NCBI GenBank assembly: GCA_016197345.1
Contig: JACPVY010000032.1
Location: 1 to 8,374, forward strand
From: Burkholderiales bacterium
GTDB lineage: Bacteria > Pseudomonadota > Gammaproteobacteria > Burkholderiales > Burkholderiaceae_D
Direction: 5' to 3'
Length of the DNA stretch: 8,374 nt
Shown here: in pieces, positions 1,539 through 2,495 of the stretch
Position numbering within the stretch: the first letter of the stretch is position 1
Layout of the letters: each line of letters starts with the position of its first letter
Notes under the pieces: model-generated
The model's database searches: none
What the model was told of the DNA's origin: nothing
Seen by the model: only the letters and a program-made list of their open reading frames with translations
Translations under genes and position numbers: made by a program

Positions 1539-1852
1539 GCGCGACATTGAAACATAGTGAAGAGCGCTTGATGAAGGTGCTAGTTGCACCAGTCATCTCG
1601 GAAAAAGCAACCATGGTTGCTGAAAAGAACGAGCAAGTGATGTTCCGCGTTCTGCCAGATGCCACCAAGCTCGAAATCAAAGCAGCAGTTGAAATGCTGT
1701 TCAAAGTTGAGGTTGAGTCGGTGCAAACCGTGAACCGCATGGGTAAGCAAAAGCGTTCTGGCCGTTTCACTGGTCGTCGCAATCACACCAAGCATGCGTA
1801 TGTTTGCCTCAAATCCGGTCAGGAAATTAACTTCACCGAGGAGGCTGCATAA
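1535..1852 (+). CDS. rplW: 50S ribosomal protein L23
   Basis: L23 sits at the mouth of the exit tunnel and docks trigger factor and SRP. The protein is 105 residues. The segment [20 protein letters not shown] at about 15-34 is the family hallmark, and Glu23 in ISEK corresponds to the trigger-factor contact Glu18 of E. coli. The C-terminal part ([21 protein letters not shown]) is normal. The ATG at 1535 overlaps the rplD stop by four bases and has GAGGAG at 1521-1526, eight bases upstream. The later ATG at 1571 would remove 12 residues that other betaproteobacterial L23 proteins have. Its last codons contain GAGGAGG (1838-1844), the ribosome-binding site of rplB, and its TAA shares one base with the rplB ATG. 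Confidence 0.97.
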
Positions 1853-2495
1853 TGGCACTCGTTAAGATGAAACCGACTTCCCCAGGTCGTCGTGGTATGG
1901 TCAAGGTCGTTAATCCCGACCTGTACAAAGGCCGTCCACTGGCAGCTTTGGTTGAAAAGAAGTCGAAAACTGCTGGCCGTAATAACAACGGTCACATCAC
2001 TACCCGTCATATCGGTGGTGGTCATAAGCAGCATTATCGTGTGATCGATTTCAAACGCACCAAGGATGGTATTCCAGACAAGGTTGAGCGTATTGAATAC
2101 GATCCAAACCGTACCGCTAACATCGCTTTGTTGTGCTACGCCGATGGCGAGCGCGCTTACATCATCGCCTCCAAAGGCATGGCTGTGGGCGACCAAGTGA
2201 TGAGTGGTTCGGCTGCTCCGATCAAATCGGGCAACTGCTTGCCAATCCGCAATATCCCAGTCGGCACCACCATGCATTGCGTGGAAATGTTGCCAGGCAA
2301 GGGGGCGCAAATGGCACGTACCGCAGGTGCTGTGTGGTCATGAACCCAATCGACCATCCTCATGGTGGTGGTGAAGGTCGTACCGCAGCAGGTCGTCATC
2401 CAGTGTCGCCGTGGGGCCAACAGACCAAGGGCAAGAAGACGCGTCGCAATAAGCGCACGACTTCCATGATCGTCTCGCGCCGTGGCAAGAAATAA
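1852..2495 (+). pseudogene. rplB: 50S ribosomal protein L2, broken by an out-of-frame internal deletion
   Basis: L2 is a primary 23S rRNA-binding protein needed for subunit joining and peptidyl transfer. From the ATG at 1852 (GAGGAGG seven bases upstream), 160 codons read as good L2, from [15 protein letters not shown] to [12 protein letters not shown]. The frame then gives VWS and a TGA at 2341-2343. From 2334 another frame gives [20 protein letters not shown] to the L2 end MIVSRRGKK, stopping at 2495. That part holds the catalytically important DHPHGGGEG histidines (His229 region in E. coli). The two parts total 213 residues against about 275, so some 62 codons are absent: the second half of the SH3-like RNA-binding domain, which normally carries LRLRSGE, the GEVGN segment and RWRG-RPTVRG. 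The missing length is about 184-188 bases, not a multiple of three. The flanking genes are intact. An assembly or consensus error is the likeliest cause because L2 is essential. Confidence 0.93.

Follow-up and report, generated by a model that had tools for sequence, protein, structure and literature searches.

Interrupted rplB in a Burkholderiales draft genome: a probable local assembly error of a kind that recurs across the draft

The rplB gene encoding ribosomal protein uL2 is interrupted in the Burkholderiales draft genome G000, where 184 bases possessed by its relatives are missing from the region of the C-terminal domain and the two remaining parts lie in different reading frames. We conclude, with a probability of roughly 0.92, that this break is a local assembly error and does not represent the sequence of the living genome. 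A single biological event should stand alone, yet breaks of this type recur across the draft, and this recurrence is the main reason for our reading.

Results

The DNA analyzed here, called the window, is a complete contig of 8374 bases (C107) from a draft that consists of 675 contigs with 2,995,108 bases in total and has a completeness of 68.17%. According to the list of open reading frames (ORFs), it carries a run of ribosomal genes that begins with the last part of rpsJ and ends with rpsE; the gene names are those that we presume from the products, with rplB additionally backed by Pfam. The remaining ribosomal ORFs are open over their full length, except that rpsE at the right end is cut by the end of the contig. 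Within the 188-base spacer between rpsJ and rplC we noticed a strong hairpin followed by a T run (positions 108–160, −26.5 kcal/mol, z −5.0), which resembles a terminator located within the S10 operon; it is absent from the list of a consensus terminator scan and gave no match in Rfam. The corresponding spacer is 158–251 bases long in the 11 of 36 tried loci of relatives in which it was measured, one of them with a six-T run.

The window's rplB spans positions 1852–2495 (644 bases) and is composed of the following elements:

1852..2331, + strand: 5′ part of rplB, L2 codons 1–160 (ORF; Pfam L2_N 1–77 of 77 and L2_C 1–37 of 126)
2331..2333, + strand: join at which 184 bases of the relatives are missing (comparison with relatives; exact place deduced from the relatives' codons)
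2341..2343, + strand: TGA stop codon of the 5′ frame (sequence)
2334..2495, + strand: 3′ part of rplB, the last 53 L2 residues and the stop codon, in another frame (Pfam L2_C 99–126 of 126)

The ORF at 1852–2343 encodes 163 amino acids, namely 160 residues of L2 and three out-of-frame codons preceding the TGA, and one base at the join can be assigned to either side. As in other uL2/rplB genes (PF00181 plus PF03947), the place in the operon is the same and both ends of the protein are conserved, and the N-terminal RNA-binding domain PF00181 (L2_N) is complete. In contrast to a normal rplB, the window gene lacks 61 codons and the reading frame within the C-terminal domain PF03947 (L2_C), which is therefore not whole in one frame but matched by two pieces. 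A first-pass annotation of this DNA had described 160 good L2 codons ending at the TGA and the last 53 residues in another frame from 2334, and both the ORFs and the Pfam matches bear this out.

The size of the loss was measured from anchors on both sides of the join. The anchors of the first pair are 31 bases apart in the window and 215 bases apart in relatives, in all 35 places where both anchors matched, and those of a second pair are 34 bases apart compared with 218 in eight of eight matching relatives (nine tried). The missing 184 bases correspond to 61 codons plus one base and, added to the 644 bases present, yield 828. The earlier estimates of an out-of-frame deletion of about 62 codons, an expected gene length of about 828 bases and a join at about 2331–2336 thus agree with our measurements, the last being narrowed to about 2331–2333. 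Twelve further anchor matches at 52 bases were rejected as shortened genes, as they represent a different site within the missing segment.

The same annotation had called for a comparison with relatives. The complete genome of the same genus, G001, has a greater distance between the two halves of rplB than the window. We compared 81 loci, of which G001 contributed one, and in 78 of them the L2 frame is open across the segment missing here; the other three, L039, L063 and L075, do not cover that part of L2 or of the operon. Two of these 78 loci are cut at the 5′ side by a contig edge, and six failed a motif test and were read by eye. A survey of the family with the L2_C profile gave matches in 272 of 294 genomes and none in 22; in the per-genome rows, the best E-value was 1.9e-11 in G000 compared with at most 1.9e-51 in the other 271 matching genomes. 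Of the 261 genomes with a rated completeness of 90% or more, 12 have no L2_C match, which probably reflects missing or masked contigs.

These results bear on the idea that the shortened gene is functional and that its two frames, coupled through an ATGA formed by A2340 and the TGA at 2341–2343, yield a reduced two-piece uL2 minus 61 codons of the C-terminal domain, in the ribosome of a free-living bacterium. The overlap and the otherwise good conservation of both pieces are compatible with such a product, although the overlap probably arose by chance. In a programmed frameshift or a split gene, all coding residues would be distributed over the pieces, and here the 61 codons are absent and not relocated, with no other L2 piece found in the available sequence of the draft. 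Since such an arrangement also occurs in none of the 78 relative loci having the gene, we regard a functional two-piece uL2 as extremely unlikely.

Alternatively, the deletion might be real and the organism might live on a second, intact rplB located elsewhere, which the first-pass annotation had proposed to search for. An incomplete draft with masked short contigs could hide such a copy. The search returned no other L2 piece in G000 at E-values up to 10, within a draft that is 68% complete and in which all 22 sampled contigs shorter than 3 kb read as N. Almost all relatives have a single L2_C match, and G017 and G204 have two, among the matches listed. Moreover, the similar breaks in unrelated genes described below would each require a separate explanation, and we consider a rescuing second copy very unlikely. 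In a protein search with the window's L2 piece, the best 120 matches listed included L2 proteins of up to 94% identity and neither a broken nor an intact rplB product of the window's species; an intact rplB of this species was not found. The closest protein in that search, P0001, is an L2 encoded on a 5.2 kb contig. Beyond HPHGGGEGK its C-terminus no longer follows the L2 sequence, and this is probably a further error in public sequence records.

We also considered that the contig might combine DNA of two organisms, with the junction inside rplB, as the gene is conserved and cross-species joins could arise there. The identity to G001 at fourfold sites is 182/323 to the left of the join and 509/876 to the right of it. 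There is no step between the two sides, therefore we see no sign of a two-organism chimera, and its probability appears negligible.

The first-pass annotation had further described the damage as local. This holds within the window, where the other ribosomal ORFs are open, and fails for the assembly as a whole, in which the damage is recurrent: at least six more G000 genes are cut likewise, encoding an ABC-F ATPase, an RND transporter, NadC, a class-III aminotransferase, UvrA and an S8 protease. Searching G000 for ABC_tran yielded 45 matches, with one domain broken over two frames on C435 in a gene that we take to encode an ABC-F ATPase, which lacks 101 bases compared with G001. A search for ACR_tran revealed a transporter of the RND family on C669 that is broken likewise, with 238 bases missing compared with G001. 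For nadC on C15, QRPTase_N is complete and QRPTase_C begins only at position 63 (178 bases missing compared with G001), and the aminotransferase gene on C25 matches profile positions 8–247 and then 292–403 (161 bases missing compared with G001). On C239, uvrA is in two pieces, of which one corresponds to residues up to 144 of a solved UvrA chain and the other to residue 177 onward in that chain, about 32 residues being missing, and the S8 protease gene on C666 matches profile positions 1–81 and 222–281 of 288 in two frames.

The RND gene on C669 (L117) has a further frame break downstream, at about 900 and beside a short one-base run, suggesting that small consensus errors occur as well, and on C567 a run of 15 N interrupts tilS. 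At L171 (C255, 3489–6213), a GAF-containing ORF is followed by an HATPase_c piece in another frame, which may be one more split gene, encoding a histidine kinase. We did not accept as split an ACR_tran gene on C546, in which about 40 profile positions are missing within one frame and which could be natural, and a search for Aldedh gave no clear case in G000, the candidate on C79 consisting of two pieces in one frame.

Because cases found by family searches might reflect what was looked for, we also drew an arbitrary sample of 48 G000 contigs at evenly spaced or otherwise arbitrary numbers. Of these, 22 are masked as N and all fall short of 3 kb; the other 26 contigs comprise 151,789 bases. These were analyzed with a codon-usage test that lists adjacent ORF pairs on the same strand in which no motif resembling a ribosome-binding site accompanies the start of the downstream ORF; the test recovers the known cases, i.e., rplB, C435 and both breaks on C669. 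An earlier codon-usage frameshift detector had been dropped because it missed known cases including rplB, and its raw counts had taken in masked contigs. The 26 contigs gave 24 listed pairs, and the 14 pairs with at least 100 amino acids on each side were scanned, a cut that was set after viewing the list and then used for the control, too. Two of the 14 were split genes (nadC and the aminotransferase gene), seven were ordinary neighbors, one was ambiguous (L171) and in four at least one side matched no family. Among 11 further pairs chosen from the 40 contigs with family hits, which are not all the pairs there, two were split (uvrA and the S8 protease gene) and one was interrupted by N (tilS), while the remainder were ordinary or without families.

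The same test and cut applied to 280,000 bases of G001 listed 24 pairs, all of which were scanned: none was split, 17 were ordinary neighbors and in seven at least one side was without a family. All nine ACR_tran matches in G001 begin no later than position 16 and extend at least to position 1018 without an internal stop. Among the 90 ABC_tran matches in G001, one is partial and contains a stop, at 14958, but we saw no case of a domain divided into neighboring pieces that lie in different frames. With 2 of 14 pairs split in G000 and 0 of 24 in G001, the breaks seem to be peculiar to this assembly and to stem neither from the genus nor from the method, small as these numbers are. They support the ranking of an assembly or consensus error as the likeliest cause, which the first-pass annotation had already given.

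The recurrence also concerns the possibility that the deletion is real but confined to a minority of cells or to dead DNA of a mixed population and was chosen by the assembler. The assembled sequence by itself is compatible with this. A minor allele is unlikely to become the consensus, however, and the same choice would be needed at no fewer than six further G000 genes, which makes this explanation highly improbable.

Discussion

The lesion in rplB is thus very probably an artefact of the draft and not a real feature. A small unresolved gap of one to a few hundred bases may have been closed by abutting its two sides, or, by an alternative route, chimeric reads may have been assembled. The organism itself would then carry a normal, full-length rplB, and reads would be expected not to support the join. 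The five measured losses are 101, 161, 178, 184 and 238 bases, none of them a multiple of three, as obtained with a method that detects frame-breaking losses only. G000 also contains two short runs of N (15 and 24 bases), which suggest that the draft was scaffolded.

At the three junctions viewed base by base, we saw no long exact repeat, nor a repeat shared among them that would suggest a single fault of the assembler. A collapse mediated by repeats was rejected for rplB, as its exact repeats (10 bases at 2317/2379 and 9 bases at 1883/2389) are not at the join. A join via Gly-Val-Val, which often flanks the missing segment in relatives, was likewise discarded since the frame would then be preserved, in contrast to the observed change. 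In all three cases viewed (rplB, C435 and the first break on C669), a stop codon ends the upstream frame only a few codons from the join, which may be due to chance.

PMC7111523 describes incorrect protein-coding genes that persist in public databases and drafts as a result of scaffolding gaps and local assembly errors. The window resembles the local errors in metagenome-assembled genomes presented there, in which a wrong consensus at unresolved points left incomplete or incorrect genes public. Those errors were recognized by missing read support, whereas the break in the window is deduced from sequence comparison and from its recurrence. A shortened uL2 has also been known from E. coli: tL2, a C-terminally truncated form once proposed to be functional, is attributed to proteolysis after cell lysis in PMC12039935. 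It is a cleavage product without the last 59 residues, in contrast to the loss at the gene level in the window (PMC12039935).

The same source gives rplB as essential in E. coli, and by analogy it would be essential in the window's organism as well. If the lesion were a true one, it would challenge the indispensability of uL2. By a rough extrapolation from a small sample, the draft may hold dozens of genes that silently lack 100–250 bases, and claims of gene loss or pseudogenes made from G000 therefore need read support.
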